This document shows positions 1-19,245 of a DNA stretch of 64,000 nucleotides, piece after piece (position 1 is the first letter of the stretch; each line of letters opens with the position of its first letter). The position numbers and the translations under genes were made by a program. Below the pieces are notes generated by a model, which saw only the letters and a list, made by a program, of their open reading frames with translations, was not told the origin of the DNA and ran no database searches. The stretch is from an uncultured Pelagibacteraceae bacterium. Its GTDB lineage: Bacteria; Pseudomonadota; Alphaproteobacteria; Pelagibacterales; Pelagibacteraceae. The stretch covers positions 62,001 through 126,000 of the forward strand of contig CACDGO010000001.1 in the NCBI GenBank assembly GCA_902552345.1, written 5' to 3'.

Positions 1-2
1 TC

Positions 3-656
3 TCTGTAATCTTTGTAGTTTTTTTTAGTGATACTTTAATTAAAAAAACTTTTGAAAGTATTTTATCTAGTAATTTAAATAGAGAAGTTAAGATAGGTGA
101 TTTTGATGTAGGTTATTTAAGTGGAGAAGTTAATTTAAAAAAAATTGAGATTAAAAACAAAGATTTTCCAGGTAAACTTCTAGTGGTTGAACAAGCTTTT
201 GCTAAGCTTGATGCTTTATCCTTTTATGAGGATATAATAGTAATTGATAATATTGTTTTAGATGGCATAAGCGTCAATTATTTCTTTGATATAACTAATA
301 GAGCAAGAAGTAACTTTACTTCATTAAAAAGAACTCTTGAAAGTAAAACCAGATCACCTAGAAAACCAGATGATAAAAAGTTCTTGGTAAAACAACTAGA
401 TATTAAAGATATAAATGTTTCGGCATCTTCCGCTGAACTTAATTTAAACCAAACCGTAAAATTAAGTGATTTAAAATTTGAAAATCTAGGGAATTCAAAA
501 GAAAGTAAAAATTATAAAACAATAGCAAGAGAAACACTTGATAAAGCATATAATGAAATAAAAGATAAATTAGCCTCCGGAGCTATTGATCAAGATGTTA
601 TAAAAGATAAAATTAAAGACAAATTACAAAATAAATTTAAAAAGCTCTTAAAATGA
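3..656 (+). CDS. AsmA-like protein, N-terminus cut off by window edge
   Basis: Frame of ORF 183..656 is open back to the window start (SVIFVVFFSDTLIKKTFESILSSNLNREVKIGDFDVGYLSGEVNLKKIEIKN...), AsmA-like N-terminal pattern; the GTG at 183 is probably not the real start. Confidence 0.6.
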   Translation, partial: SVIFVVFFSDTLIKKTFESILSSNLNREVKIGDFDVGYLSGEVNLKKIEIKNKDFPGKLLVVEQAFAKLDALSFYEDIIVIDNIVLDGISVNYFFDITNRARSNFTSLKRTLESKTRSPRKPDDKKFLVKQLDIKDINVSASSAELNLNQTVKLSDLKFENLGNSKESKNYKTIARETLDKAYNEIKDKLASGAIDQDVIKDKIKDKLQNKFKKLLK

Positions 657-1153
657 AAAAAGGGTTTACCTTAATCGAATTACTAGTTACCCTAGCCATT
701 GTAGGCACTTTAATTGGTGTAGGAATATTTATTTATAATGGGTATGTAAAGTCAGCAAAGGCATCTGCTACAATTACGCAATTTAAAATGGTGGAAAATC
801 ATATCAAAAATACTTTAGCGCTTTGTTTTACTAAAGGTGGAGGGAGTGTAAAATTAAATGATAGTAGATCCATTGATTGTGATGCAGCCAATAATAAGTC
901 GAATGTAATATCTATGCTTGATAGTTTTAAAAATTACTATTTGGATCAATCGATTAAAAATCCATATGATAATTCTCATGATGCCATAGTTAGAACAGGT
1001 TCTGGCGGTGATAAAGTCGATGGTCGATTGCGTTTGGATGAGACGGAGTGTCCAGGCGGGTATTCAAAAGGTACCATGATCTCTTTGAGGGCGAAAACAC
1101 ATAAAGAATTAAAACTTTCACTAATTGAGCCAGCAGGGTGGTGTCAGAAATAG
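653..1153 (+). CDS. Type IV pilin/pseudopilin-like protein
   Basis: Class III signal MKKGFTLIELLVTLAIVGTLIGVGIF (prepilin peptidase motif G^FTLIE). Confidence 0.85.
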   Translation: MKKGFTLIELLVTLAIVGTLIGVGIFIYNGYVKSAKASATITQFKMVENHIKNTLALCFTKGGGSVKLNDSRSIDCDAANNKSNVISMLDSFKNYYLDQSIKNPYDNSHDAIVRTGSGGDKVDGRLRLDETECPGGYSKGTMISLRAKTHKELKLSLIEPAGWCQK

Positions 1154-1193
1154 CGATAACTTGAATAAATTTCTTGAAAATTCTATAATAAAT

Positions 1194-1247
1194 TGTAAAC
1201 AAAGGTGCAGTGACAGCATATGTTAAAAGCAATGTTCACTAAAATAA
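1194..1247 (+). pseudogene. Decayed remnant of the C-terminus of the trypsin-like protease at 3608..4588
   Basis: Translates as CKQRCSDSIC*KQCSLK*, versus intact C-terminus CKQRSSDSICQKQCSIK*; high nucleotide identity; same position relative to a downstream propeller gene. Confidence 0.85.
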
Positions 1248-1261
1248 ACCTAAATTAATAA

Positions 1262-3508
1262 ATGATTAAGTTTTTATTAAATTTCATTCTAATTTTTTTT
1301 TATTTTTTAAACGTTCACGCTCAAAACGTTTATCCTGAATATGCTGATAAACTTACATTTCTTCGAGCTGATCAAGGCGTTAATTATCCAGATATTTCTG
1401 ATATAGCATTCAATGCTGATGGAACAAGAATTTTTGTTGGTCATCACCTAACACATAATACTACGCACATATTTCAGTATGATCTGGGAACTGCCTGGGA
1501 TATATCTACATTAGATATATCAAGTTTAGTCACAGCAAATCTTAAAGAAGATAATCATGCTGAAGTGAATCCTGTAAATAATACTAAATTAACTATAGAT
1601 TTTAATGATGATGGAACAAAAATATTTATTCTAGGAAGTTTTGCTGCAACGACGCATATTTATAATTTGACTACTGCTTACGATATCTCAAGTATCGGAG
1701 AAGCAACATATGTTGCTGACGATGGAATTGATTGGAGAAATTATTTAGTTCCTGGGGAAGCCGCAACACATCAAAATGATATAGAATTAAGCCACGATGG
1801 GACTAGAATGTTTTTACTTGATGGAGATGCAACTCCTAAAGTTGTTGAGTATCAATTAAGCACTCCTTTTGACCAAAGCACCGCATCATATAACGGTAAG
1901 TTAGATATTACAGATGCACTTACTTACCGAGCAATGACAGTTGAATTTGATGATGATGGAACAAGAATGTACGTCGGAGAAGCGAGTAACACATCACAAT
2001 TTAATAATATTTATGTATGGAAACTTTCTACTCCTTATTCAGTGACATCCGCTACCTATGCTGGAAAATGGCAAATTGATTTTAGAGGTGTATCAGACTC
2101 AAAAGGAGCCAATTACGCATTCCAATTTGGAAAGCAAGGTATGAAACTTTATGTTACATCCAACGAATATACTAAAGAAGATAATACAAACACAATTTAT
2201 GACGATGTTATATTTGAATATGATTTGATCTGTCCTTATGGAATAGTAGTTTGCGAATTAGATGAAACAAATGTTCAAACAGATACTGCGGTACAAATAG
2301 AATTTGCAAAAAATGTTATTAAACACAACACTTCTACAATTTTTAGAAGATTCGACTGGCTCAGAAGAAATGAAAATAATTTAAATTTATACACTCAAGA
2401 TATTAAATTTAACTTTAGCCCAATTATGGGATTTTTACCTGATGAAATTGAAAAACCCTTAACTAAAAATTTGATTACTAAAGTAAGCTCCATTAAAAAA
2501 GACCCCAATAAAAATAGCAAAAAGATTAAAAAATGGTCATTCTGGTCTCACGGAGATGTCACATTTGGAGAAAGAGATAATTTAAATTTAAATCCGAGGG
2601 AATTTCAAACAAGCGGTTTAACATTTGGTGGAGATCGAAAAATAAACGACCATTTCTTTGGCTTTGCTTTAAGATATGGTAACGAAGATATTGATATTTT
2701 AAAAACTAATTCAAACAAATTTGAAACTGAGTCTCTTTCATTAAATTTATATAATTCATTAAAGATTAACGATAATCTTAATTTAAATTCTCTTTTAGGG
2801 TCGAGTGTTTTAGATATTGATAAATTTGAATCAAACGCAATTACCGGACATAGAAACGGAAAACAAATTTATTCTGCAATAAGCCTCCAAGCAAGAAGCG
2901 GTTTTACAGATTTTAATTTTATGCCTACAGGTAAAATTGAATTTGGTATTACAGAGCTATCAGAGTATAATCAATTTAATACTTCAAATAATCTTTTAGC
3001 AAATCATGATCTTTTAACTTTTGAAACAGGGACATTAACAACAGGATTGAAATTTGATAATCTTAAAGACATTACCAACGGAAAAAGAAGTATTAATGGT
3101 AGTTTTGAATATGTTCAGGACTTTTCTTCTGATATAGATTATGAATTTTTAAACTCTGGTGACACTGTTTATCAAACTAAAACCTACGGTGGTAATTCAA
3201 TACATAATTTAAAAAGCAATATTGGTTTTGAGAGGATATTAAATAGTGGCTTTACTTTTGGGTTTAACTACGAAAATTTCCAAGGGTTTGATGAGAATAG
3301 TGTTAACGAAGATAGTCTTTACTTAAAACTAAGTCATGTTCGAGATGATTATAAGAAAACTAATTTAGATTTCGATCCTATCAATGACAATCTAGCTTTA
3401 AAATATAATCTTAATCTAAGTGGATTTAATTTTTCATTGAACTCTAATCATAGTCTAAAAAATCAAGAACTATTTGACGCTATGGTTAAATTTTCAAATA
3501 AACTTTAG
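1262..3508 (+). CDS. Secreted beta-propeller protein with C-terminal autotransporter-like beta-barrel (paralog 1)
   Basis: Signal peptide MIKFLLNFILIFFYFLNVHA; five DGT(R/K)-type repeats (FNADGTRIFVG, FNDDGTKIFIL, LSHDGTRMFLL, FDDDGTRMYVG, FGKQGMKLYVT); C-terminal half WSFWSHGDVTFGE...GLTFGGDRKINDHFFGFALRYG resembles autotransporter barrels. Confidence 0.75.
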   Translation: MIKFLLNFILIFFYFLNVHAQNVYPEYADKLTFLRADQGVNYPDISDIAFNADGTRIFVGHHLTHNTTHIFQYDLGTAWDISTLDISSLVTANLKEDNHAEVNPVNNTKLTIDFNDDGTKIFILGSFAATTHIYNLTTAYDISSIGEATYVADDGIDWRNYLVPGEAATHQNDIELSHDGTRMFLLDGDATPKVVEYQLSTPFDQSTASYNGKLDITDALTYRAMTVEFDDDGTRMYVGEASNTSQFNNIYVWKLSTPYSVTSATYAGKWQIDFRGVSDSKGANYAFQFGKQGMKLYVTSNEYTKEDNTNTIYDDVIFEYDLICPYGIVVCELDETNVQTDTAVQIEFAKNVIKHNTSTIFRRFDWLRRNENNLNLYTQDIKFNFSPIMGFLPDEIEKPLTKNLITKVSSIKKDPNKNSKKIKKWSFWSHGDVTFGERDNLNLNPREFQTSGLTFGGDRKINDHFFGFALRYGNEDIDILKTNSNKFETESLSLNLYNSLKINDNLNLNSLLGSSVLDIDKFESNAITGHRNGKQIYSAISLQARSGFTDFNFMPTGKIEFGITELSEYNQFNTSNNLLANHDLLTFETGTLTTGLKFDNLKDITNGKRSINGSFEYVQDFSSDIDYEFLNSGDTVYQTKTYGGNSIHNLKSNIGFERILNSGFTFGFNYENFQGFDENSVNEDSLYLKLSHVRDDYKKTNLDFDPINDNLALKYNLNLSGFNFSLNSNHSLKNQELFDAMVKFSNKL

Positions 3509-3607
3509 TAAAAAAAACTATAAAAATTAAGTCTTTCTACTTTATCGAAAAATATTGATAAGTGTCTAATTTATAGATAATATTTTGATAAATTTATTTC
3601 AGAAATT

Positions 3608-4588
3608 ATGGTTGAAACAGTAGTAGCCTTATTATTATTTCTAAATGGAAACATGGTTGAGCATGTTTATAAAGACAACCTTGCTCAATGTAATGAGTCT
3701 AAGAAAATTGCAGAAAGTGTAGTTAACACTAGAAACGTTACATTTGTTTGTAAAGAAGTTAAAGCTAAAACAATAATTGATGATACTAACAACCAGAAAA
3801 AAATCGTTAAAGTATTTGATAATAATATTTTCACCGGCTCTGGATCAGGATTTTTTATTTCAGATGAAGGTCACTTAGTAACTAATCACCACGTCGTAAA
3901 TTATTGTAATATCACTCAGGTAAATTATTTTGGTAAAACTGGAAAAGCTAAAGTATTGGCTTATGACAGAATGAATGATCTTGCTTTGTTAGAAACTGAT
4001 ATTAAACCAAAAGATAAATTTGATATTGCTCCTCAAGACGCTAAACTTTTAGATGATATTTATGTTGCTGGTTATCCTTTTGGGCAAGCAGTAAGCTCAT
4101 CTGTAAAAGTTACCAAAGGTGTTGTGAGTGCTTTAGCAGGTTTACAAGATAATTATGCTTTAGTTCAAATTGATGCAGCCATACAGCCAGGTAATAGCGG
4201 TGGTCCAATTGTAAATGCGAATGGTGATGTTGTTGGTGTGGCAGTTGCAAAATTAGATTATAAAGACGCGTTAGAGTCTTATGGAACAATTCCTGAGAAC
4301 ACTAATTTTGGAATTAAATCTTCTATATTAAAAAACTTTACCTCAGCAAATAGAATGAAAAACTCTAATAAAGAACCAAAAGAAATTCCAAAAGACCAAG
4401 TAGGTGAAAAAATTCAAAATGCAACAGCATATGTTGGATGTTATACAGCTGAGACCAAAATTGCTGCCATGAAAACAGTTGAAACTGCTTTTGGTCAGCC
4501 ACGACTAGCTTTTGACTTTATTTGCTATAATAATTGTAAGCAAAGAAGCAGTGATAGCATTTGTCAAAAGCAATGCTCTATAAAATAA
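3608..4588 (+). CDS. Trypsin-like serine protease with Cys-containing N- and C-terminal extensions
   Basis: Catalytic triad motifs VTNHHVV, MNDLALL, QPGNSGGPIV; no PDZ domain evident; Cys-rich tail CYNNCKQRSSDSICQKQCSIK. Confidence 0.85.
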   Translation: MVETVVALLLFLNGNMVEHVYKDNLAQCNESKKIAESVVNTRNVTFVCKEVKAKTIIDDTNNQKKIVKVFDNNIFTGSGSGFFISDEGHLVTNHHVVNYCNITQVNYFGKTGKAKVLAYDRMNDLALLETDIKPKDKFDIAPQDAKLLDDIYVAGYPFGQAVSSSVKVTKGVVSALAGLQDNYALVQIDAAIQPGNSGGPIVNANGDVVGVAVAKLDYKDALESYGTIPENTNFGIKSSILKNFTSANRMKNSNKEPKEIPKDQVGEKIQNATAYVGCYTAETKIAAMKTVETAFGQPRLAFDFICYNNCKQRSSDSICQKQCSIK

Positions 4589-4601
4589 TAATACAATAGA
4601 A

Positions 4602-6944
4602 ATGTTTAAGCGTTTTTTCATATTCATTTCCTTATATTTATTTTCGATCTCTAATTCGTTTGCTGCCATGGTTACTTTTAATCAATCGGTAACAGTCCCA
4701 GCATCAATTGATGCTCAAATATCTGGCATTCATTTTAATAAAGATGGTACTAAGATGTTCACAGCTTATATGAAACGAGTAGGTGGTGATGGTACTCGTT
4801 ATATAAGAGAATATAATTTATCTAAACCTTTTGATATTTCAACAAGAGTTTATGCAGGAGATAGTGAACGATGCAATTTAACTGGGACAATAAACAATTC
4901 TAACCATTTTATCCATGACCTAGAATTCAGTAAAGATGGAATGAAGTTAATTGTAGTACAAAGTAGAGACACTAATTTTAATGGTGCTGATGGAATCAAT
5001 GTATTTAATTTAACATCACCTTACGATATTTCAACTTGTACAGAATTTAAAAAACAAACCCATCTTGATTATTTTGTACTTACGCATGGAAGTAAGGCTG
5101 GAGATTATAGTAGAGGCACGGAACAAAAACGATACCACAGGGTTCATGGTGTAGAAGTTAATGACGATGGTACAAAAATATTTATGCTCTGGGCCGATTT
5201 TGGTAAATTTTCACAAGGTGATGATAGCGTGGGAGATATTACTGCTAGATTGTATGAGTTTGAGATTTCCACTCCTTATGATGTAAGTGAGCTCGATTTT
5301 TTGGGAGATAAAGAAATTGTGGAAGACGCAGGGATACCGCTACCTGACACATTGTTTGGAGCAAATAGCCCAAGAGGCATGAGATTTTCTCCAGATGGAA
5401 AAAAAATTTTTTTCATCGCTCACGATAATACCGGAAGTACAAATAGTGTGACAGGAATATCTCAAGTTTCACTAGACAAGCCTTTTGACACATCATCGTA
5501 CACTTTAGATGGTGGAATTGATCTTAGTGGATTAAGTACTCCTAATGATCAAGCTAATGGAATTGCATTTAGCGAAGATGGTTTGAAGCTTTATATTGGA
5601 GACGATAACGACACAGGTGTCGATCAAATTATGGAATATGACTTAGCTTGTCCTTTTAACATTATTGCTGGTAAATGTCCTCCGGTTACAAATAAAGATA
5701 GAATTGGTATAGCAGAAGCACAAATAACGGTTGCTAAAAGAACAATTGATCATGCAACAGACAGCGTTTTGAATAGATTACAATGGATTAGAAGAAATAA
5801 AGATAAACAAAATTTATCTAATCTTAATATAGATTATAATTTAAATACCCCTCAACTTGATAATCCATTATTGAATACTTTGGTTCAAAAAATTCCAGAA
5901 AAAATAAACGTACATCGAGCATCTATTAAAAATAAGATAGACAACAAAAAGCAAGATGTATTTTACTGGAGTGAAGGAAGTATTTCCATTGGAAGAGTAG
6001 GAGACACAGATGTTTCTTCTACAAAAATAATTGAAACAGATGCGATTTCTTTTGGTGCTGATAGATATACAGATAACAATGGAATACTTGGAACAGCATT
6101 TAGATTTGGTAAAAATGATATCGATGTCGGAAATTTAGGCAGCAATTTAGATACCGATACATATAACTTTTCAATTTATTCAACTTCACCAATTATGGAG
6201 GACGAAAAGTTTCTAGATACCGTTTTTGGTATAGGTAAATTGAGTTCAAACATATTGAGTGTTGTAGATGGTGAAAATTTGACTGCTGATCGTGACGGTC
6301 ATCAAATGTATGGAACTATTAAATTAAAAGAGGAGATAAAAAAAGATAATCTTATTTTAATCCCTTCTTGGAGACTAGATATTGGCCATACTATTTTAGG
6401 AAGTTATAAAGAGTCTGGACCTGGGGCAATCCATGTCCAAAAACAACATGTTGGATCCAAAAAAATAAGAGCCGGTTTAGCAGTTACAGAAGATTTGTCT
6501 AGTGATAATTATTTTTTTAAAAAACACGGCAAATTAGAGTACGTCGCTGATTTTGATCGCTCTTCTAATTTTAAATATAATTATGTAAGTGATCCAATCG
6601 ACACGTTTAGTGAAAAATTGCATTCAGAGTCTTTACATAATTTTAATGGTGAATTAGGTTTAGATTTAGTATTACCTAATGGTTTTAGTATCTTTATGAT
6701 CTATGAAAGAAATCAAGCTTTAGGGGACTCTCATACTGATAAAATACATTTAGCATTGGGATATCTACCAAACAAAAAAACTAACTATGCTTTTAACTTA
6801 GCAGGCTCAGAAAATCTAGGATCAGAGTATAAGATAAGTAAAATTATAAACGATTTTGAAATAGACTTTAAGCTAAATAATCAAGATGTGTTAAAACCGA
6901 ATAGCGTCGATGAGGCATCTGTAAACATTATACGTAAATTTTAG
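4602..6944 (+). CDS. Secreted beta-propeller protein with C-terminal autotransporter-like beta-barrel (paralog 2)
   Basis: Signal peptide MFKRFFIFISLYLFSISNSFAA; five repeats (FNKDGTKMFTA, FSKDGMKLIVV, VNDDGTKIFML, FSPDGKKIFFI, FSEDGLKLYIG); linker and barrel collinear with 1262..3508; C-terminal Phe. Confidence 0.75.
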   Translation: MFKRFFIFISLYLFSISNSFAAMVTFNQSVTVPASIDAQISGIHFNKDGTKMFTAYMKRVGGDGTRYIREYNLSKPFDISTRVYAGDSERCNLTGTINNSNHFIHDLEFSKDGMKLIVVQSRDTNFNGADGINVFNLTSPYDISTCTEFKKQTHLDYFVLTHGSKAGDYSRGTEQKRYHRVHGVEVNDDGTKIFMLWADFGKFSQGDDSVGDITARLYEFEISTPYDVSELDFLGDKEIVEDAGIPLPDTLFGANSPRGMRFSPDGKKIFFIAHDNTGSTNSVTGISQVSLDKPFDTSSYTLDGGIDLSGLSTPNDQANGIAFSEDGLKLYIGDDNDTGVDQIMEYDLACPFNIIAGKCPPVTNKDRIGIAEAQITVAKRTIDHATDSVLNRLQWIRRNKDKQNLSNLNIDYNLNTPQLDNPLLNTLVQKIPEKINVHRASIKNKIDNKKQDVFYWSEGSISIGRVGDTDVSSTKIIETDAISFGADRYTDNNGILGTAFRFGKNDIDVGNLGSNLDTDTYNFSIYSTSPIMEDEKFLDTVFGIGKLSSNILSVVDGENLTADRDGHQMYGTIKLKEEIKKDNLILIPSWRLDIGHTILGSYKESGPGAIHVQKQHVGSKKIRAGLAVTEDLSSDNYFFKKHGKLEYVADFDRSSNFKYNYVSDPIDTFSEKLHSESLHNFNGELGLDLVLPNGFSIFMIYERNQALGDSHTDKIHLALGYLPNKKTNYAFNLAGSENLGSEYKISKIINDFEIDFKLNNQDVLKPNSVDEASVNIIRKF

Positions 6945-7033
6945 AAAAGAAACCTAAAAACTTAATTTTTACTTTATAAAAAAATATTTGTAAGAATAAA
7001 ATATTATAGTATTTTACTCTCAATATGAGATTT

Positions 7034-7753
7034 TTATTGATTAGAAATTATATTTTTAGCCCTGGAGTCATCTAAATAATAATATTTTTGAATTCTTAAT
7101 TGATTATCAAAATCAATTAGCAGCGGATTTCCTGTAGGGATTTCTAATTCATTTATTTTTGTATCTGAAATCTTAAATAAAAATTTACATAAAGCTCTTA
7201 ACGAATTTCCATGAGCTGATATTAAAATATTTTTCCCATTTTCTAAATTTTTTTTTATTTCAATATCATAATAAGGAACTACTCTTTCATATGTATTTTT
7301 CAAAGACTCAGTTAATGGAATTTTATTTTTAGGAATTCCACTGTTTAAAGGACTAAAATTTTCAAGGTAATTACTATCATCAGCTATGAGAGGCGGTGCC
7401 ACATCCCAAGATCTCCTGTATTTTTTAAATTGTTCTTCACCAATTTTTTTTTTTGTTTCTTCTTTATTTAAACCCGTTAATGACCCATAATGTCTCTCAT
7501 TTAGTTCCCAAGCTGTATTAAAATTCATGGGTAAACTAAGTGATTTTAAAATAATAGTTAGGGTCTCAATTGCTCTTTTAAGATATGAGGTATAACTAAT
7601 ATCTATTCTTATATTTAATTTATTAAGTAAATCTCCCGATTTTTTTGCCTCTTCCTTACCTTTTTCTGAAAGACCAACATCTACCCAACCAGTGAATTTA
7701 TTTTCAGCGTTCCAGATGCTCTGACCGTGTCTTGTTAAGATTAGTTTACTCAT
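7034..7753 (-). CDS. gpmA: 2,3-bisphosphoglycerate-dependent phosphoglycerate mutase
   Basis: LTRHGQSIWNAENKFTGWVDVGLSEKG and SAHGNSLRAL motifs. Confidence 0.92.
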   Translation of the reverse strand: MSKLILTRHGQSIWNAENKFTGWVDVGLSEKGKEEAKKSGDLLNKLNIRIDISYTSYLKRAIETLTIILKSLSLPMNFNTAWELNERHYGSLTGLNKEETKKKIGEEQFKKYRRSWDVAPPLIADDSNYLENFSPLNSGIPKNKIPLTESLKNTYERVVPYYDIEIKKNLENGKNILISAHGNSLRALCKFLFKISDTKINELEIPTGNPLLIDFDNQLRIQKYYYLDDSRAKNIISNQ

Positions 7754-7793
7754 ATAAGTTAGCTAAGTTATTATGTACTATATAAAAAACTAA

Positions 7794-8186
7794 ATGAAAA
7801 ATACTATCTTCCTTGTTTTAGAATATTTATTCTATTTTTCATTTATTATTCTATTAATTCTTTATCTGTTTCCAGGAAGTTTAATTGGCTACTTTTTATA
7901 TGGTAATTTAGGAGAACAACCCAATTTTTTTCCAAATCCAATAGGAACATCTATTAATCATTTGTTATTCTTTTTTTATTTAGGTATCCTTGGTTTTGTG
8001 TTACGCAGCAATCAGAAAAAATTTATAAATAGCCTTTTTTTTTTATTATTAATTTCAATTATTTTAGAATTATTACATTATTTTATTCCAAATAGAGCCT
8101 TTGAACTTAATGATTTATTCGCAAATAGTTTGGGGATACTGATGGCCTATTTAACATATAAATTATTTAAAAAGACTCAATATTAA
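7794..8186 (+). CDS. VanZ-like small membrane protein
   Basis: Four hydrophobic segments; LELLHYFIPNRAFELNDLFANSLGI matches VanZ-like pattern. Confidence 0.6.
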   Translation: MKNTIFLVLEYLFYFSFIILLILYLFPGSLIGYFLYGNLGEQPNFFPNPIGTSINHLLFFFYLGILGFVLRSNQKKFINSLFFLLLISIILELLHYFIPNRAFELNDLFANSLGILMAYLTYKLFKKTQY

Positions 8187-8684
8187 ATGAATACACGTAT
8201 TTTAATTATATTTTTGATTTGGATTTCTAATGTTGTAGCAGAAGAAGTTTCTGGAATTCCAAAAATTATAGATGGAGACACAATTCATATCAACGATTAT
8301 AAATTTAGATTAGAAGGTATAGATGCTCCAGAAATGAGACAACAATGTAAAAAAGAGTTTTTAAAAATTTCATCTATAATTGGATTTTCATTTTACAAAG
8401 ATTATACCTGTGGAAAAGTTTCTAGAAAAAAGCTAATTACTAAAATTAATAAATCAGAAATTAAATGTATATCTACAACTAAAGATAGATACAAAAGATA
8501 TATTGCTACCTGCTTTAAAGGAAAAACTAATCTAAATCAGTGGATGGTAAGAAATGGATTTGCAATAGCATATAGAAAATATTCCAAAAAATATGTATCT
8601 GATGAAGAATTTGCAAAAGAAAATAAATTAGGAATATGGCAAGGAAAATTTATCGAACCAGAAAAATGGAGAAAGCTTAATTAA
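8187..8684 (+). CDS. Secreted thermonuclease (SNase)-family nuclease
   Basis: IDGDTIHINDYKFRLEGIDAPEMRQ...DRYKRYIATCF...NKLGIWQGKF. Confidence 0.85.
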   Translation: MNTRILIIFLIWISNVVAEEVSGIPKIIDGDTIHINDYKFRLEGIDAPEMRQQCKKEFLKISSIIGFSFYKDYTCGKVSRKKLITKINKSEIKCISTTKDRYKRYIATCFKGKTNLNQWMVRNGFAIAYRKYSKKYVSDEEFAKENKLGIWQGKFIEPEKWRKLN

Positions 8685-8704
8685 TTTTTAGTATAAATTA
8701 TAAA

Positions 8705-9304
8705 GTGATTCATTTTAAAAAATTAATATTTATTTCAATTTATTTTATTGTAATAGCCTGCTCTTCAATCCCAAAAAATACACAAAATAGTTGCGCTATC
8801 TTTGAAGAAAGATATCTATGGTACAAACACTCAAAGGCTTCTTATGAAAAATGGGGAGCACCAATCCATTTACAACTAGCATTTGTTAAAAAAGAAAGTG
8901 ACTTCAATTGGCTAGCGAAACCTCCAAGAACTAAATTATTTAAAGTAATACCATTTAAAAGACCTTCATCTTCATTTGGATATTCTCAAGCTGTGAAAGG
9001 AACATGGGAGCAATATAAAAGAGAAACAAATAATCCACTAGCTACAAGAGCGAGATTTAAAGATTCAGTAGATTTTATAGGGTGGTATATTTATAAAACA
9101 AATAAAATATTGAAAATTTCTAAAAAAGATCCTTATCGACAGTATTTAGCCTATTATAAGGGTTGGGGAGATTATAAAAATTACTCAAAAGATAAAAAAG
9201 CTATAATATATGCAAAGTCGGTTAAGGATATGGCAATTAAATATAGAAAACAATTAAAGTTATGTAAAAAAAATCTAGATAAAAATAAATATATTATTTT
9301 TTAA
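8705..9304 (+). CDS. Lipoprotein, transglycosylase SLT-like
   Basis: Lipobox-like VIACSS; KKESDFNWLAKPPR and SSFGYSQAVKGTWEQY resemble SLT fold. Confidence 0.6.
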   Translation: MIHFKKLIFISIYFIVIACSSIPKNTQNSCAIFEERYLWYKHSKASYEKWGAPIHLQLAFVKKESDFNWLAKPPRTKLFKVIPFKRPSSSFGYSQAVKGTWEQYKRETNNPLATRARFKDSVDFIGWYIYKTNKILKISKKDPYRQYLAYYKGWGDYKNYSKDKKAIIYAKSVKDMAIKYRKQLKLCKKNLDKNKYIIF

Positions 9305-12300
9305 GCTGTCTTTGTAATTCAATCTCAACAGCATCCATCCTCTTAGTTCCTCTTCCAACAATTGTGTAAACAGTCGGAATTACATAAAGAGTGAAAAAGG
9401 TAGAAAATAACATTCCACCAAAAATCGTTATACCAACAGTTAAGCGACTTGCTGCGCCGGGGCCAGTCCCAAGAATAAGTGGTAAAACACCAATTATTGT
9501 TGAGATACTTGTCATAAGAATGGGTCTTAATCTTATCGCCGCCGCTTCAAAAACTGCGACTTCTAAATTTTTTCCTTCCTTTCTTAACTGATTTGCAAAT
9601 TCTACAATTAGGATACCGTTTTTAGCTGAGAGACCGATCAAAATAATTAAGGCTATCTGACTATAAACATTTAATGAAGACCCAACTACTAGTAAACCAA
9701 TTAATCCACCAAGAATAGCCATAGGCACAGTTAACATAATTGTTAGTGGATGCCTCCAGCTTTCAAATTGAGCACTCATGGCTAGGTAAGCAGTAATTAA
9801 TGCTAAAGCAAATATTACATAAAGTTCAGTGTTGGTTTTTTTATACTCTTCACTTTCACCTTTATAAGCAATTTTTGCTTGAGGAGTATTTTGTTCTACA
9901 ACACTTACTAAAAACTTCAGAGCCTCATCAAGTGAATAGTCTCCCACAAGTCTTGCCGAGATAGTGACTGCTTTTTGTCTATTGTACCTAGCTAAGAACG
10001 GAGATTGTCCCTCTTCATCGTATGCAACTAAGTTTGACACAGAAACAAGCTTTCCATTATTTTTAGACCTTACGAAAACTTTACTTATACTATCTGGTTC
10101 TTGTCTATCTTTGATATCACCTTGCAAAATTATAGAATATTCTTTTCCATCTCTAGTAAAGTTTGTAACTCTTTTAGAACCAAAAATTGTTTCTATAGTT
10201 TTTCCAATATCTTCTGTCGAGACTCCTAGATCAGCAGCTTTTTTTTGATCTATCTTAACATTCAATTGAGGTTTGTTTAGATCGAAGTCATCTTGAATAG
10301 AAGTAAGGCTAGGATTTTTTCTTGCCTCTTTTTTAATTATCTCTTTCCACTCAATCAATTGTTCGTATGTATTACCTAAAATAACAAATTGGATTGGACT
10401 TTCTATTCCTCCAGTCCTTATCCCCTGAGGCATTATTGGAAAAGCCAAAACACCTGGTACTTTTGTAATTTTTCCAAAAGACTCTCTCATTATCTCAACT
10501 CCATGACGGTCTCTTTTAGCCCAAGGCTCTAAAAGAACAATTATAAAACCACTATTTACTTGTTTAGCTGACTTACCAAAACCTGGAACTCGCATAATTA
10601 ATTTTCTATATTCACCTTTACCTACACTTGGAAGTAACAATTCCTCAATCTCCTCTGCTCTATCTTTGGTAAAATTAAAGCCGGATCCTTGAGGAGCTTT
10701 TACAATTACAAAAAATGCCCCCCTATCTTCAGGTGCAATTAATTCTTTCTTAGCAAAATTAAAAAAGAATATTGTTAATGCAAGTGTTCCTAATAAAAAA
10801 ATAGTTATTGTTTTCCTTTTCTTTATCCAATTTAATAGTGAAACTTTATAAAGGTATGTGAGATCTTTTAAAAACTTTTCAAACTTTAAAACAATTTTTG
10901 ATTTTTGCATATTTTTTTGTAAAAATTTACTAGCCAACATTGGACTTAATGATAGTGCAACAAAACTAGAAATAATTACAGCCGATGCAAGAGTGATTGC
11001 TGTTTGAGTAAAAAGCACTCCCGTGATTCCTTTTATAAAAATAAGGGGAACAAATACTGCTACTAGCACAACAGTTGTAGCAATTATTGCAAATGATACC
11101 TGTTTAGCTCCTTTATAGGCTGCAACTAAAGGTGTATCTCCTAACTCTATTCTTCTCACTATATTTTCGAGCATCACAATGGCATCGTCAACTACAATAC
11201 CGATAGCTAAAACTAAGGCCATCAAAGTAAAAAGGTTTATTGAAAAATCAAAAATATAAATTGATAAAAATGTTGAGATTAATGAAACTGGTAACGCTAT
11301 TAAAGGTACAACCAAAGCTCTTAGGTTGCCTAGAAATAGATAAATAATAACAGTCACCAATATTAATGCAATGATCAGCGTCTTATAAACTTCTTTAATA
11401 GCAGATTTTATATAATTACTTCTATCAAATGAAACTTCCAAGGTAGTACCTGGCGGTAAGCTTGGCTTTAATTCTTTTATCTTTTTTTTGATCCCATTAG
11501 CTACTGCGATGGTGTTTGCATCAGATTGTTGATATATTCCTATTCCAACAACTTGCTTTCCATTACCTTTAAAAAGAGTTCTTGTTGACTCAGCTCCTAA
11601 TTCGATTTTTGAAACATCTGATAAGGTTATAATTGAACCGTCCTTAGCTCTTTTTAGAGGTAGATTTTTATAATTTTCAACTTCTTTATAAGCTTTGTCG
11701 AGTTTTATAGTGAGATCGATATCCTTTGACTCAATTCGCCCAGCTGGGAATTCTGTATTTTCACTTCTTAGCACTGCTTCTACTTCTTGAGTGGTTAGAT
11801 CTCTCGCAGCTAAAGCGATTGGATCTAGCCAAACTCTGAGCGAAAGTTCTCTTTGACCTCCAAGACGAACTCTCCCCACACCATCAACAGTCGAAAAAGT
11901 GTCAGTTAAATATCTATCAGCATAATCAGTCAACTCTAAATCAGTCATTGTTTCAGAATTAAAAGACAACCACATAGTAGTCCTCATCCCAGCACTTTGT
12001 TTGAAAATTTCAGGCTGTTCTGCTCCCTCCGGTAAATTATCTAAAACTCTTGACACTGAGCTCCTAACGTCGTTAGCAACATCATCTAAATTTAGACTAG
12101 TTTCAAACGTGAGTGTAATTCTTGAGCTTTCATCTTCACTAAAGGAGTCAATCGTTTCCAAACCTGGTGTTCCTCCAACAAAATCCTCGATTTTTTGAGT
12201 TATTTGAGTGTCAACTATCTCTGCGGAGGCTCCTCTATAATCAGTTTGAATAGTAACAACAGGAGGCTGGACATCCGGAAGCTCGTCAGTGGGAATTTCT

Positions 12301-12389
12301 TGAAAAGTAACAAGACCAAATATCACTAACACTAAACTCATTACTGATGCTACGACAGGTCTTTTTATAGATAAGTCTGTTAAAAACAT
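9294..12389 (-). CDS. RND-family (AcrB/MexB type) efflux transporter
   Basis: 1031 aa; MFLTDLSIKRPVVASVMSLVLVIFGL...ELPDVQPPVVTIQTDYRGASAEIVD; GIVVDDAIVMLENI. Confidence 0.95.
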   Translation of the reverse strand: MFLTDLSIKRPVVASVMSLVLVIFGLVTFQEIPTDELPDVQPPVVTIQTDYRGASAEIVDTQITQKIEDFVGGTPGLETIDSFSEDESSRITLTFETSLNLDDVANDVRSSVSRVLDNLPEGAEQPEIFKQSAGMRTTMWLSFNSETMTDLELTDYADRYLTDTFSTVDGVGRVRLGGQRELSLRVWLDPIALAARDLTTQEVEAVLRSENTEFPAGRIESKDIDLTIKLDKAYKEVENYKNLPLKRAKDGSIITLSDVSKIELGAESTRTLFKGNGKQVVGIGIYQQSDANTIAVANGIKKKIKELKPSLPPGTTLEVSFDRSNYIKSAIKEVYKTLIIALILVTVIIYLFLGNLRALVVPLIALPVSLISTFLSIYIFDFSINLFTLMALVLAIGIVVDDAIVMLENIVRRIELGDTPLVAAYKGAKQVSFAIIATTVVLVAVFVPLIFIKGITGVLFTQTAITLASAVIISSFVALSLSPMLASKFLQKNMQKSKIVLKFEKFLKDLTYLYKVSLLNWIKKRKTITIFLLGTLALTIFFFNFAKKELIAPEDRGAFFVIVKAPQGSGFNFTKDRAEEIEELLLPSVGKGEYRKLIMRVPGFGKSAKQVNSGFIIVLLEPWAKRDRHGVEIMRESFGKITKVPGVLAFPIMPQGIRTGGIESPIQFVILGNTYEQLIEWKEIIKKEARKNPSLTSIQDDFDLNKPQLNVKIDQKKAADLGVSTEDIGKTIETIFGSKRVTNFTRDGKEYSIILQGDIKDRQEPDSISKVFVRSKNNGKLVSVSNLVAYDEEGQSPFLARYNRQKAVTISARLVGDYSLDEALKFLVSVVEQNTPQAKIAYKGESEEYKKTNTELYVIFALALITAYLAMSAQFESWRHPLTIMLTVPMAILGGLIGLLVVGSSLNVYSQIALIILIGLSAKNGILIVEFANQLRKEGKNLEVAVFEAAAIRLRPILMTSISTIIGVLPLILGTGPGAASRLTVGITIFGGMLFSTFFTLYVIPTVYTIVGRGTKRMDAVEIELQRQLKK

Positions 12390-13262
12390 TTAATTTCTAG
12401 GATTAATTTTTCTTATTTTGACATTATTTCTTACTTTTGAGACACCTTCTGTAATAACAAAGTCACCTTCATTTATTCCAGAGACAACAGAAACTTTACC
12501 AAAATTTCTCTTACCTATTTGAATATCTTTTTTTTTAGCAGTATCATCTTTGACTGTATAAACAAAAGCTGTGCTACCTTGGATTGTCACAGCACTTTCA
12601 GGAACACCAATTTGACTCGTTTCATCATATATGACTTTTACGGTCATTAATTGCCCTGGGATGATCTCAAAACTTGAATTATCTACTAAAACTCTAGATA
12701 AAATTGACCTTGTGGAAGGATCTATCCTCGAGCTGATTGTCTCAATTTTCCCTTGAAAAATTTTATTAAATGCTGAATTCGTAATATCTGCCCTTAGTCC
12801 TTTTTTTAGTATATTTACATAATTTTCTGGAACTTTGATATCTATAACTATCTTTTTTAAATCATCTAAAGTCACTATTAAACTTTCTGAGCCTAAAACG
12901 CCTTGCGCAATTTCTCGTTTACCTAATTTTCCTTCAAAGTCAGCAATTATTTCTTCACCGCTTTTAAGCTTTAAAATTACTTCACCTTTTTTTACAAATC
13001 TATTTTCAATATTTAATTTTCCAGATACTTCAGTTGTTTTAATTCGATAAGTCTTTGAATTTTGCGCAATAGCAGTTCCAAATGTTTCAATACTTTTATA
13101 AAATAAAGATTTCTCAACTTGTTCAACAATTACTCCTGGAGCAGGTCTTACACTAAATTTTTTTTTAAAGTGTAATCCTATAAAATGTCTTGCAGCTATA
13201 ATCGCAAAAATACCTATAAAAAAGATGATTAAAAAAATTTTTAATTTTGAAAATGTTTTCAT
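12390..13262 (-). CDS. RND efflux membrane fusion protein
   Basis: HlyD/AcrA-type periplasmic adaptor directly upstream of RND gene; likely start is internal Met (MKTFSKLKIF) because the longer ORF overlaps the neighbour. Confidence 0.88.
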   Translation of the reverse strand: MKTFSKLKIFLIIFFIGIFAIIAARHFIGLHFKKKFSVRPAPGVIVEQVEKSLFYKSIETFGTAIAQNSKTYRIKTTEVSGKLNIENRFVKKGEVILKLKSGEEIIADFEGKLGKREIAQGVLGSESLIVTLDDLKKIVIDIKVPENYVNILKKGLRADITNSAFNKIFQGKIETISSRIDPSTRSILSRVLVDNSSFEIIPGQLMTVKVIYDETSQIGVPESAVTIQGSTAFVYTVKDDTAKKKDIQIGKRNFGKVSVVSGINEGDFVITEGVSKVRNNVKIRKINPRN

Positions 13263-14077
13263 TTTTTTTCTAGTCCGTACTCTGACCATGAGCCGTCATA
13301 GATAGTTGGCTTTTTACCACTTATGATAGAATTAGCTAGTCCTAAAATACATGCAGTAACACCAGATCCACATGTAAAAGCTATATCTTTGTTATTGTCT
13401 ATTTGATTTTGATTAAAAATATTGATCAATTCATCTCTTTTTTTAAAAGTACGATCTTCGTTTAAAAGTAATTGAAAAGGTAAATTTTTAGAGCCCTCAA
13501 CATGACCACTTTTCAAACCCTGTCTTGGTTCCGGTTGTATACCTAAAAATCTTTGTTTGCTTCTAGCATCTATAAGCTGAAATTTTTTACTTGATATATT
13601 ATCTTCGACTTGTTTTTTATTTATAAGAATTGATTTATTCTCTCTAGCTTTATAATTTGTTTTAAAAATTTTTATTGACTCTTTTGAGGTCGGTCTTTTT
13701 TCTCTTAACCACTTTTTAAAATCTCCATCTAACACTGAAACAAGATTAGTATCGTGATCGAAATAAATAAAAGTGTACCAAACTCTACAAGCACTGTAGA
13801 CATCAGAATTGTCATAGATAACTATATGGTCAGAGTTTTTTAAACCTAGATTGGAAATGATTTCTTCCCATTTTTGCATTGACGGTAGCATATGTGGTAA
13901 TGAAGTGTTCTGATTTGAATTCTTATCAATATCAAAAAAAATTGAATTTTTTATATGATTCAACTTAAATTCTTCCTCAGCATTTCTATTTGAATTAGGT
14001 AAGCACCACGTAGCGTCTAAAATCTTAACATAGTCAATATTTTTTTCCAGCCATTCCGTAGTAACAAGTTGTTTCAT
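13259..14077 (-). CDS. sseA: 3-mercaptopyruvate/thiosulfate sulfurtransferase
   Basis: Two rhodanese domains; active-site loop CGSGVTAC. Confidence 0.88.
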   Translation of the reverse strand: MKQLVTTEWLEKNIDYVKILDATWCLPNSNRNAEEEFKLNHIKNSIFFDIDKNSNQNTSLPHMLPSMQKWEEIISNLGLKNSDHIVIYDNSDVYSACRVWYTFIYFDHDTNLVSVLDGDFKKWLREKRPTSKESIKIFKTNYKARENKSILINKKQVEDNISSKKFQLIDARSKQRFLGIQPEPRQGLKSGHVEGSKNLPFQLLLNEDRTFKKRDELINIFNQNQIDNNKDIAFTCGSGVTACILGLANSIISGKKPTIYDGSWSEYGLEKK

Positions 14078-14523
14078 TATCTATTCTTTTCGAAGTATCT
14101 TTGATGATATTCCTCTGCTTTACAATAATTTTTAAGTGGAGAAATATTGGTTTGAATTTTTCCATTAAGCTCTTTATTAAAAATTTCCATAACTTCTTTT
14201 GCTTCTTTTTTTTGATCTTCATCTTCATAGAAGATTTCACTTCGATATTGAGTTCCAATATCTGGAAATTGCATATCTTTTTGAGTGGGATCGTGCATCT
14301 TAAAAAATAAATCTAAAATTTTTTTGAATGAAATAATTTTCTCGTCAAAAGTTAATCTTACAACCTCAGCATGACCAGTATTACCCTTGCAAACTTCTTT
14401 GTAGGATACTATAGGATTATATCCGCCAGCATAACCTACCTCGGTACCAATAATACCTGGTTTGCTTTTAAAGTTTTCCTCAGGGCCCCAGAAGCACCCT
14501 AGTCCGAGTGTACATTTCTTCAT
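14077..14523 (-). CDS. msrA: Peptide-methionine (S)-S-oxide reductase
   Basis: GLGCFWGPEENF, GYAGG, GHAEVV, YHQRYF. Confidence 0.92.
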   Translation of the reverse strand: MKKCTLGLGCFWGPEENFKSKPGIIGTEVGYAGGYNPIVSYKEVCKGNTGHAEVVRLTFDEKIISFKKILDLFFKMHDPTQKDMQFPDIGTQYRSEIFYEDEDQKKEAKEVMEIFNKELNGKIQTNISPLKNYCKAEEYHQRYFEKNR

Positions 14524-14555
14524 AAGTTAATTATACAGATATTGAGGATATTAAA

Positions 14556-15434
14556 TTGTTAACACGAAATCAATTAGGCGTATTGTACGGTATTGCATCA
14601 GTTGCATGTTTTGCGATGATGGATGCAAGTGTTAAATGGCTTGATATGTTTCCTGTAGGTCAAGTATTGTTTTCAAGGTTCTTTTTTGGCTTGATACCAA
14701 TTTTGATGCTTGTTCCTCGAAGCGAATTTAAAACTTTTTATAAAACAAGAAGACCTAAGTTACATGCATTTAGAGCAATTACAGGCACGCTAGCAATAAT
14801 TGCTTTATTTATAGCATTGAGAGAAATACCTTTGGCAGATGTAGTAAGCTTAACTTTTGGAGGCCCTATTTTCGTTACGTTAGGTTCAATATTTTTTTTA
14901 TCAGAAAAAGTTGGAGTTAAAAGATGGCTCGCTGTTTTAATTGGGTTTATTGGAATGTTGTTGATTGTAAAACCTGCTTATGAGGAATTAAATATATATT
15001 ATATTTTTCCAATAATTTTTTGTATTTTTTTTGCTTGCGTTGCTTTAAGTATAAGAAGCTTATCTTCAACAGAACCTAATTATAGAATAGCGCTTTATTT
15101 CTCACTTTTAAGTATGGTGGTAGGATTATTTACTTTACCGTTTGGATGGGTAATGCCGAATACATTTGAATTATTTCTTTTAATTTTTACAGGAATTATT
15201 GGCTCAGTTGCTAATATACTTTTAACTGTTTCATTAAGATTTGCTGAAGCTTCGCTAGTTACTCCAACTAAATATTTAAATTTAGTTTTTGCAATTTTAT
15301 TAGGTTATTTTATATGGAGTGAAATACCGAAACTTTTAACACTTGTGGGAGCTGGATTGATAATTGTAAGCTCTATAATTATTTTCATGAGGGAATCTGA
15401 ACTAAAAAAAAAAGTGGTAAGTTCTAGGCCGTGA
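14556..15434 (+). CDS. EamA/DMT-family transporter
   Basis: About 10 TM segments with two EamA repeats. Confidence 0.88.
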   Translation: MLTRNQLGVLYGIASVACFAMMDASVKWLDMFPVGQVLFSRFFFGLIPILMLVPRSEFKTFYKTRRPKLHAFRAITGTLAIIALFIALREIPLADVVSLTFGGPIFVTLGSIFFLSEKVGVKRWLAVLIGFIGMLLIVKPAYEELNIYYIFPIIFCIFFACVALSIRSLSSTEPNYRIALYFSLLSMVVGLFTLPFGWVMPNTFELFLLIFTGIIGSVANILLTVSLRFAEASLVTPTKYLNLVFAILLGYFIWSEIPKLLTLVGAGLIIVSSIIIFMRESELKKKVVSSRP

Positions 15435-16054
15435 GAAAGTACCCAAGTTATTGGTTAAAAGCTATTAAGATTTTATCTAAAAAAGATAAGGTTTTAAAGA
15501 AGCTCATACTAAAATATGATGACAAATTCTTAACAACTAAAAAAGATATCTTTTACTCTCTTTGCAAAAGTATAGTTGGTCAACAAATAAGTGTTTCAGC
15601 AGCAAATTCAGTATTTAAAAAGTTTCAGGTAAAATCTAAAAAAATTAATCCTGTTAATGTATCCAAATTGTCTTTAGTTCAATTAAAATCTTGTGGTTTA
15701 AGTAGACAAAAAGCTTTAGGTATAAAAGAATTGTCAATTAAATTTTTAAAAAAAGAATTTAATCCAAAACTTATTAATAAAATGAGTGATGAAGATGCTA
15801 TAATATATTTATCTAATCTTAGACAGATTGGAAGGTGGAGTGCTGAAATGATACTATTATTTACTTATAATCGATCAAATATATGGCCGTTACAGGATAT
15901 CGGTCTACTTAGAGCAATCTCCAATAACTATAAAAAGAAATATTATCCCCCAAAAAGTTTTTTGAAAAAACTTTATAAAAAGTTTACCCCTTATTGTTCA
16001 GTTGCCACTTGGTACCTTTGGCGTAGTATTGATGATGAACCAATTCAGTATTGA
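15431..16054 (+). CDS. alkA: DNA-3-methyladenine glycosylase II (HhH-GPD family)
   Basis: SIVGQQISVSAANSVFKKF; LRQIGRWSAEMILLF...WPLQDIGLLRAI. Confidence 0.82.
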   Translation: MRKYPSYWLKAIKILSKKDKVLKKLILKYDDKFLTTKKDIFYSLCKSIVGQQISVSAANSVFKKFQVKSKKINPVNVSKLSLVQLKSCGLSRQKALGIKELSIKFLKKEFNPKLINKMSDEDAIIYLSNLRQIGRWSAEMILLFTYNRSNIWPLQDIGLLRAISNNYKKKYYPPKSFLKKLYKKFTPYCSVATWYLWRSIDDEPIQY

Positions 16055-16338
16055 GCACCCTCAACAGTTTGGTGTTGTCGGTCTGCAAAACCTTTAAGAA
16101 TCGAATGCGCAGCCTGATATTCTTTTGAATTATAAAAGTTATTTGCCTCATCATAAGACGGGAATTCAATTACAACTGTTCTTGGAGATTTATTGCCTTC
16201 ATTTGATGTTGATCTCCCACCCCTAATTAAAAATTTACCTTTATATTTTTCAACTGCTGCTCTAGCTTTGACTGCATATTCTTTCAACTTTTCCTCATTA
16301 TTTATACTTTTATAAACACACACTACATATCCTTTCAT
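16045..16338 (-). CDS. DUF1330 family protein
   Basis: MKGYVVCVYKSINNEEKLKEYAVKA...FLIRGGRS...VVIEFPSYDEANNFYNSKEYQAA. Confidence 0.82.
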   Translation of the reverse strand: MKGYVVCVYKSINNEEKLKEYAVKARAAVEKYKGKFLIRGGRSTSNEGNKSPRTVVIEFPSYDEANNFYNSKEYQAAHSILKGFADRQHQTVEGAQY

Positions 16339-16371
16339 TTACAACTCCTTTAAAATAAATTAGCTTTCTTC

Positions 16372-16899
16372 ATGGCAGATAAACTTATCATTGATTGGAA
16401 AGAGTACAATCAAATCGTAGAAAAACTAGCCATACAGATCCATAAAAGTGGCTTTAAGCCTAATTTACTCATTGGAATAATGAGGGGCGGTGCTCCAATC
16501 ATAGATGTTTTGAGCCGTGTGTTTAAACTAAAATGTGCTTATTTAGCTGTAGAGTCCTATTCTGGTGATGGTGTTGAAGATCAACAAGGCGATTTAATTT
16601 TTTCAAGGGAAATGAGTTCAACTGTCCAAGAAATGAGCGGAAATATTCTATTATGTGATGATTTATCTGATACTGGAATCACATTAAACAAAAGTATCGA
16701 TTGGCTAAAAAAATACCCACCCTTGAAAGAAAATATAAAAGAAATTAGAACAGCTGTCTTATGGAAGAAAAAAGACTCTACTTTTGAACCTGATTTTTGT
16801 GCGCAAAAATTAGATAGCAATCCGTGGATTGTCCAGCCGTTTGAGCATTATGAAGAGATAAAAGTTGAGGACTTAATAGAGAAACATGAGAAGAATTAA
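16372..16899 (+). CDS. Purine phosphoribosyltransferase
   Basis: PRTase motif ILLCDDLSDTGITL; convergent with purine permease. Confidence 0.82.
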   Translation: MADKLIIDWKEYNQIVEKLAIQIHKSGFKPNLLIGIMRGGAPIIDVLSRVFKLKCAYLAVESYSGDGVEDQQGDLIFSREMSSTVQEMSGNILLCDDLSDTGITLNKSIDWLKKYPPLKENIKEIRTAVLWKKKDSTFEPDFCAQKLDSNPWIVQPFEHYEEIKVEDLIEKHEKN

Positions 16900-16920
16900 G
16901 GGCCAGAGTTACCCGGCCCT
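16899..16920. terminator. Bidirectional hairpin terminator between convergent genes
   Basis: AGGGCC-agagttaccc-GGCCCT flanked by A/T tracts. Confidence 0.75.
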
Positions 16921-16926
16921 AAATTT

Positions 16927-18237: not shown

Positions 18238-18241
18238 AAAA

Positions 18242-18336
18242 TTAAACCTCCGTTTAAAGTTTATTACTCTATATATGTATCAAAATCTTAACTAAATCAG
18301 GCATAGCTGCCGAGATTCAACCAATAGTAAATATAT
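18242..18336 (-). promoter_or_regulatory. Structured 5' leader of purine permease (candidate cis-regulatory RNA)
   Basis: Minus-strand TTGGTTGAATC-TC-GGCA-GCTA-TGCC-T-GATTTAGTTAA hairpin (18288..18324), flanking ATATAT/ATATAT pairing, and TTAAAC-GGAG-GTTTAA hairpin with the SD in its loop (18242..18257). Confidence 0.5.
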
Positions 18337-18372
18337 CTGTTTATAACTTTTCGTTATAAAATAAGGGTTAAC

Positions 18373-18678
18373 ATGAAAAAATTATTTTTTGCAATTTTAT
18401 ACACATTATTAATAATTTCTTTGGGTGGTTGTAAAGCAGTATCAAATAAAATTGAGGATACGACAGAAAAAGAGAACCAAAAATTAAGTAAATGGTTGAA
18501 TAAACCAGAGGAAGATCTCAAAAGTTTTTATGGTCAACCAGATAAAGTTGAGTTTTTAAAAACTAGAAATAGGAATTACGTTTATATAAATGAAAAATAC
18601 AAGATTAAGTGTGAGCGTAAGTTTGAGGTAAATCCAAGGAATATTGTGGTTGGTTTTAGTAGTAAAAATTGCTTTTAA
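18373..18678 (+). CDS. Small lipoprotein
   Basis: Lipobox LGGC after hydrophobic N-terminus. Confidence 0.6.
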   Translation: MKKLFFAILYTLLIISLGGCKAVSNKIEDTTEKENQKLSKWLNKPEEDLKSFYGQPDKVEFLKTRNRNYVYINEKYKIKCERKFEVNPRNIVVGFSSKNCF

Positions 18679-18683
18679 TTACC

Positions 18684-18702
18684 TGCGGAGTAAAACTCCG
18701 CA
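18684..18702. terminator. Hairpin terminator between convergent genes
   Basis: TGCGGAGT-aaa-ACTCCGCA. Confidence 0.7.
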
Positions 18703-18714
18703 AGTAAGGTAAAC

Positions 18715-19155: not shown

Positions 19156-19213
19156 TTATCCTCCTTTGTTAGCAAGGTTTTATGTCAGTCCCATTTGGCA
19201 ACTAACAAAGTAG
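19156..19213 (-). promoter_or_regulatory. Candidate RNA thermometer in hsp20 leader
   Basis: 9-bp perfect inverted repeat CTTTGTTAG (minus strand, + 19202..19210) / CTAACAAAG (+ 19164..19172) abutting the SD GGAGG, with imperfect extension UCU/GAGG. Confidence 0.5.
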
Positions 19214-19245
19214 ATATGGTTATTATTTTTATTTTTTCAAGATTG

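Follow-up and report, generated by a model that had tools for sequence, protein, structure and literature searches.

The window analyzed here is a 64,000-nucleotide stretch of DNA from an uncultured Pelagibacteraceae bacterium (SAR11, Pelagibacterales; assembly GCA_902552345.1, contig CACDGO010000001.1, positions 62,001 to 126,000 of the forward strand) and lies within a genome of approximately 1.0 Mb. Near its left end are two forward-strand genes, AT1 (positions 1262 to 3508; 748 amino acids [aa]) and AT2 (positions 4602 to 6944; 780 aa), whose products we identified as autotransporters with a predicted five-bladed propeller passenger. An initial annotation of this DNA, made from the sequence alone, had placed the two open reading frames (ORFs) at exactly these coordinates. 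Homology, a model of the passenger, and a blade hidden Markov model (HMM) supported the assignment for AT1; for AT2, it was supported by a match to PF03797, a full-length model, and the blade HMM.

The two proteins share one layout. Each starts with a hydrophobic leader of the typical Sec kind, evident on direct reading of the sequence, and putative signal peptides were delimited by eye at residues 1 to 21 of AT1 (MIKFLLNFILIFFYFLNVHAQ; positions 1262 to 1324) and residues 1 to 21 of AT2 (positions 4602 to 4664). The predicted propeller passenger occupies positions 1328 to 2230 in AT1 and positions 4671 to 5645 (residues 24 to 348) in AT2. It is followed by a boundary cysteine pair, which is C324/C331 in AT1 (positions 2231 to 2254; invariant in 59 passengers) and C350/C359 in AT2 (positions 5649 to 5678), and then by a conserved helix ending in FDWLRRN in AT1 (positions 2270 to 2374, by alignment to the AT2 helix) and in LQWIRRN in AT2 (residues 365 to 398, positions 5694 to 5795). 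The canonical strands of the autotransporter barrel were assigned to positions 2531 to 3337 of AT1 by alignment to AT2 and to positions 5958 to 6764 of AT2 (12 strands, residues 453 to 721) by PF03797, the model, and fold matches. A C-terminal tail extends past canonical strand 12 in both proteins (positions 3338 to 3505 and 6765 to 6941, respectively).

The motif DG-x-[KR]-[MILVF] was found in strict form at residues 53, 117, 179, and 232 of AT1, with a fifth copy carrying QG at residue 292, and at residues 48, 112, 189, 265, and 326 of AT2. Shuffled passengers contained a mean of 0.03 (AT1) and 0.08 (AT2) motifs, with maxima of 2 and 3, respectively (20,000 shuffles). The five repeats per protein described in the initial annotation were thus recovered. 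The boundary (YDLICPYG/YDLACPFN), the helix ends, and the barrel that it had pointed out also proved to be real and conserved: in an alignment of 26 homologues, the boundary cysteines, the WLRR/WIRR helix, and the barrel were among the best-conserved features, and R392, W395, R397, R398, C350, and C359 (AT2 numbering) were invariant. C324 and C331 of AT1 probably form a disulfide. AT1 and AT2 are 26% identical end to end (E = 9e-55). PF03797 matched AT2 (E = 1.1e-25) and 24 of the 26 family members, and AT1 is assigned a putative barrel through its homology to AT2. For the passenger, a profile search matched the YVTN S-layer propeller 1l0q (E = 1.9e-15). A single-protein search of PDB sequences with AT1 gave no match, a PHROGs search gave no meaningful match, and none of the propeller families of Pfam (WD40/lactonase, seven-bladed) scored above the cutoff in AT1 or AT2, whose blades number five.

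AlphaFold models were built for full-length AT2 from the 26-sequence alignment (predicted local distance difference test [pLDDT], 72.6; predicted template modeling score [pTM], 0.68) and for the AT1 passenger alone from 59 sequences (pLDDT, 83.3; pTM, 0.88). In the AT2 model, the 20 passenger strands were read as five four-stranded blades, the fifth of which is completed by the N-terminal strand (residues 24 to 31); the helix, a poorly predicted linker of approximately 50 residues, and a barrel starting at residue 453 follow. The AT1 passenger model has the same five-blade order. Blade closure was read from strand order and fold matches. The best PDB matches of the AT2 model (Foldseek) were the autotransporter barrels of EstA, AaaA, NalP, and EspP, with template modeling (TM) scores of 0.76 to 0.79 for the first three (by target length) and of up to 0.82 for EspP. 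AT2 and, through its homology to AT2, AT1 resemble these classical type Va proteins in their C-terminal PF03797 barrel and overall fold, whereas the passengers of the latter type are beta-helices or SGNH hydrolases rather than propellers. The proposed architecture of propeller, helix, and autotransporter barrel is supported by the full-length model of AT2 and, for AT1, by the passenger model together with barrel homology to AT2. Neither a missing propeller nor a nonbarrel C-terminal domain was encountered.

For 60 of 63 sequences, the blade HMM counted five blades, neither more nor fewer; AT1, AT2, a protein of Lentibacter phage ICBM2, and an autotransporter of a different alphaproteobacterial family are among the 60. 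Among the blade clusters of complete viral ORFs, 104 of 133 had five blades and 7 more had a multiple of five (111/133). Judged by these sequence counts, five is the fixed blade number. One homologue (L132:8288-10060, genome G601) has three near-identical propeller repeats and represents either a true short form or repeats collapsed during assembly.

Loop variation differed strongly between the two ends of the blades, with loop classes delimited by the strands of the AT1 model. The A-B and C-D turns had a mean entropy of 1.2 bits and a nearly constant length, whereas the B-C and D-A loops had mean entropies of 2.8 and 2.5 bits and lengths of 0 to 28 and 5 to 35 residues, respectively. In propellers, A-B/C-D turns and B-C/D-A loops lie on opposite faces; one predicted face would thus be near-invariant, and the opposite face would vary in both sequence and length. 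The variable face is likely the ligand-binding face. The invariant passenger residues are the structural Gly, Asp, Phe, and Lys of the repeat and the two cysteines, and no conserved catalytic or polar site was seen in the passenger alignments (26 homologues; 59 passengers), which suggests a binder (adhesin or lectin-like) rather than an enzyme. Other passengers carried on related anchors are binding domains as well (C-type lectin, LamG/ConA-like, and Big_5). A surface enzyme of the lactonase or gluconolactonase type that opens or hydrolyzes a dissolved substrate would account for the weak Pfam matches of some members to Lactonase (best, 8e-8) and SGL (1e-4), but such enzymes are six- or seven-bladed, and the pattern of invariant residues just described does not suit one; we regard this explanation as highly improbable. 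Of the functions suggested in the initial annotation, adhesion or binding is plausible, whereas sensing and substrate processing found no support.

Several pairs of relatives revealed how the passengers diversify. Protein identity leaps at the cysteine boundary from 30 to 50% to 95 to 100%, where the DNA is 93 to 100% identical; for example, L030:10638-12860 and L025:5819-7960 share 32% identity in the passenger and 94% in the barrel. These sequence comparisons show passengers swapped as whole cassettes at the cysteine boundary, with the helix and barrel kept. In two genomes (G330 and G210), the island slot of the autotransporter genes holds a different protein with repeats resembling a beta-helix passenger (L098:10626-12758 and L099:3626-5824, the latter on the reverse strand), with no Pfam match and with a C-terminal Phe.

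Propellers homologous to the passengers were found in at least 550 viral-contig stretches. They occur in roseophages, in ICBM2 (between tail assembly genes), and in a Synechococcus phage gene annotated as baseplate wedge protein 53. The best fold matches of the AT1 passenger were predicted marine phage proteins (TM score, 0.64 to 0.72). By sequence and predicted fold, the passengers are homologues of marine phage tail-region proteins; unlike the autotransporters, the phage proteins have no barrel, which was absent from all viral ORFs examined. A five-bladed propeller also serves host recognition in Gp45 of phage phi11 (PMC4901313). Gp45 resembles the passengers in its five-bladed ring and recognition role but was not among the best 50 PDB fold matches of the passenger. 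In a quick tree, bacterial and viral propellers fell on separate sides (support, 97); three long or unsure rows had been removed from the final tree, which was then thinned. The two thus form separate sister groups and show no sign of recent exchange between bacteria and phages. A first quick tree, with several label changes, had suggested that propellers were captured repeatedly from phages; this was rejected because the cleaned tree separates the groups cleanly.

The phage kinship bears on an alternative in which variation is driven by phages or predators. The propeller would be an exposed structure recognized by phages or grazers, or else a decoy in competition with phage tail propellers for one receptor; its swapping would bring escape rather than a change of ligand. 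Homology to tail-region proteins (a baseplate wedge protein among them), the location of the family in hypervariable region 1, the replacement of passengers on retained barrels, and the presence or absence of the whole island in different genomes are all consistent with this alternative. The separation of the sister groups, with no recent exchange seen, and omega values below 1 argue against it, and we consider it possible but on balance unlikely.

AT1 and AT2 close, on the right, a type IV pilus island of approximately 31 kb that was followed leftward beyond the window. Its edges are a nucleotidyltransferase gene on the left (G000:C1:37221) and a phosphoglycerate-mutase-like gene on the right (positions 7034 to 7753, reverse strand), and it encodes a further propeller autotransporter, PilD, a C-type-lectin autotransporter, PilY1, minor pilins, PilT, PilM to PilQ, PilB, PilC, and pilins. 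Four genomes of the same genus lack the island and have its two edge genes side by side; judged from this gene order, the island is gained and lost as one unit between them. Relative to genome G325, synonymous divergence (dS) was 0.01 to 0.05 for AT1, AT2, PilC, and the last pilin but 0.43 to 1.07 for genes just outside the island (mutase, VanZ-like, nuclease, and transglycosylase), which indicates that the island was exchanged recently.

Between AT1 and AT2 lies a gene (positions 3608 to 4588, forward strand) for a trypsin-like protein with an HtrA-type protease domain (PF13365, E = 4.9e-27), no PDZ domain, and a Cys-rich C terminus. It is the sole divergence outlier inside the island (dS, 0.30; nonsynonymous divergence [dN], 0.002, relative to G325) and looks like a separate, strongly constrained recombination tract. 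Most close loci have the protease gene next to the autotransporter genes; in G330, it lies between pilin genes, and among the loci compared, it is missing from the HTCC1062 region, L026, and L029. A dedicated partnership with the autotransporters was rejected on these grounds. The initial annotation had tentatively joined the protease and the autotransporters in one system; the adjacency is real, but the protease follows the pilus island and is not strictly tied to the autotransporters.

The family has five members in the genome of the window, one of them far from the island (C1:265 kb). It was matched in 106 of 297 sampled Pelagibacterales genomes, being common in one genus and rare in that of the window. 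Outside the order, the propeller occurred in two families only (289 sampled genomes of the class), and in both, no pilus genes adjoin the propeller autotransporters. Across the 297 genomes, PilQ and the family were both present in 76, one of the two alone in 30 and 9, and neither in 182 (odds ratio, 51, with related genomes counted as independent). This co-occurrence, the presence of the autotransporters in one island with PilD, PilY1, and the other pilus genes, and the very strong constraint on the protease (dN/dS, 0.01 to 0.02) would fit propellers that are accessories of the type IV pilus, binding incoming DNA, the pilus tip, or a surface for pilus-driven, competence-like uptake, with the protease maturing pilins or autotransporters. 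Such a role is improbable in view of the genomes that have only the family or only PilQ, the distant copy in the genome of the window, the two outside families whose autotransporters have no pilus genes beside them, and the loci that lack the protease.

Members of this family have been named before. In the part of Wilhelm et al. (2007; PMC2217521) on which we draw, SAR11_0042, SAR11_0044, and SAR11_0046 of strain HTCC1062 are named "Type V autotransporters" and placed in hypervariable region 1, one gene copy having been lost between strains. Genome G046, which we took as HTCC1062 because its gene order is that of Table 7 in the same paper, has three five-bladed homologues, which neighbor Amt transporters and pilins. 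They share 54%, 30%, and 27.5% identity with AT2 over most of its length. Family and setting are therefore the same, with homology across passenger and barrel, but that part of the paper mentions no propeller, passenger exchange, or tail. A large autotransporter adhesin of coastal SAR11, also a Pelagibacteraceae protein encoded beside type IV pilus genes and sometimes in hypervariable regions, was described in 2025 (PMC12636525). It differs in gene size (5 to 9.5 kb, with repeats, versus approximately 2.3 kb for AT1 and AT2), and a propeller is unmentioned. Frames of approximately 1,970 aa with the same helix-barrel as AT1 and AT2 were found and are possibly related to that adhesin. Since the family had been named as type V autotransporters in 2007, its existence in SAR11 is not new; what is new is the passenger and the way it varies. 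No earlier report of a propeller passenger akin to phage tail-region proteins, variable face, cassette swapping, or tail was found in the open-access literature, although a description elsewhere is possible.

Taking sequence and models together, we infer that AT1 and AT2 are surface-displayed, ligand-binding (adhesin-like) propellers that diversify by cassette swapping, with a probability of roughly 0.6. Several observations weigh against this reading. The models rest on 26 and 59 sequences, with a pLDDT of 72.6 for AT2, and how the four loop classes compare in size depends on strand limits from one predicted model. Taken alone, the AT1 barrel had no Pfam match at an E value of ≤1. The AT1 passenger scored only 0.40 to 0.48 (TM) against solved WD40 and lactonase propellers, all of them larger rings, although such scores are expected if the AT1 ring is smaller. 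In the pairs tested, omega was higher for the passenger (0.32 to 0.56) than for the barrel (0.16 to 0.24), with all values below 1; no positive selection on the passengers is seen in these pairs. The PilQ association counts related genomes as independent, and a secretin match was lacking in 12 of 63 near-complete family-positive genomes.

As surface-displayed binders, AT1 and AT2 would be type Va-like autotransporters exported by Sec. If they behave as others of the family, the C-terminal barrel would enter the outer membrane, the N-terminal domain would pass through it, and the conserved helix would stay in or near the pore. The passenger would then fold outside as a five-bladed propeller, with the N-terminal strand closing the last blade, and remain tethered. 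Beta-helix passengers are thought to fold progressively during export. A ring closed by its N-terminal strand could instead close only after the N terminus has emerged, which makes the propeller relevant to the question of passenger folding in autotransporter export. The variable-loop face would bind the ligand, and the near-invariant turns would build the other face; diversity arises, as the sequences show, from point divergence and from recombination of whole propellers at the cysteine boundary. The whole island comes and goes as one block, so that its autotransporters probably take part in the same surface program as the pilus; this may be contact with other cells, particles, or DNA or an escape from phages or grazers.

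SAR11 bacteria, the most abundant in the ocean, thus appear from these models to display ring-shaped, five-bladed binding proteins. Their cells are streamlined, yet many retain several surface genes of approximately 2.3 kb in a hypervariable region. Exchangeable propellers with a constant and a variable face provide a testable function, namely, ligand binding by the variable face, and link bacterial surface proteins with the recognition modules of phage tails. The propeller reading can be tested in culture, since HTCC1062 has three members.

The C-terminal tail is a further feature of the family. In AT2, the 12 canonical strands stop at residue 721 and are followed by a conserved tail of 59 residues, predicted with low confidence as three to four amphipathic strands and ending in Phe. 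An extension of approximately 55 residues past the canonical 12th strand is conserved family-wide and is not shared by the lectin autotransporters in the same genome: some 70 to 80 residues follow the PF03797 match in the propeller, LamG/Big_5, and other-family forms of the order, compared with 24 to 26 in the lectin members. A C-terminal Phe was present in 61 of 69 complete C termini. We know of no such strand-rich tail after strand 12 in classical type Va autotransporters. A membrane-strand hydrophobicity score decided nothing, as results on the tail were mixed and a linker control also scored well. The tail may be part of an enlarged barrel or else periplasmic.

In a wider and rather doubtful view, SAR11 would possess a modular display system in which one helix-barrel anchor carries exchangeable heads (five-bladed propellers whose variable face is antibody-like, C-type lectins, and LamG domains) swapped at the fixed cysteine boundary. 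The propeller heads would be kin to marine phage tail propellers, with which they might be in an arms race for shared receptors. The anchor barrel would be enlarged beyond 12 strands, and its assembly signal would have shifted to the new C terminus.

Other genes of the island were also noted. The lectin autotransporter (L060:12286-14400, reverse strand; about G000:C1:42286-44400) combines PF00059 and PF03797 inside the island. The PilY1-like protein (L060:14519-16999 and L061:3-1445, both on the reverse strand) has NHL-like repeats N-terminally, by sequence a possible propeller in the pilus island. No Rfam match to a structured RNA was found within positions 1 to 20000 of the window. Upstream of AT1, a type IV pilin-like protein (positions 653 to 1153, forward strand; TIGR02532) is encoded by the last of four pilin genes in the pilus operon. 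It is preceded by a gene for a DUF748-like (AsmA-type) protein (positions 3 to 656, forward strand), which is cut by the window start and whole in the neighboring stretch L061. This gene lies between two pilin genes and has the same position in G210, G325, and G330.

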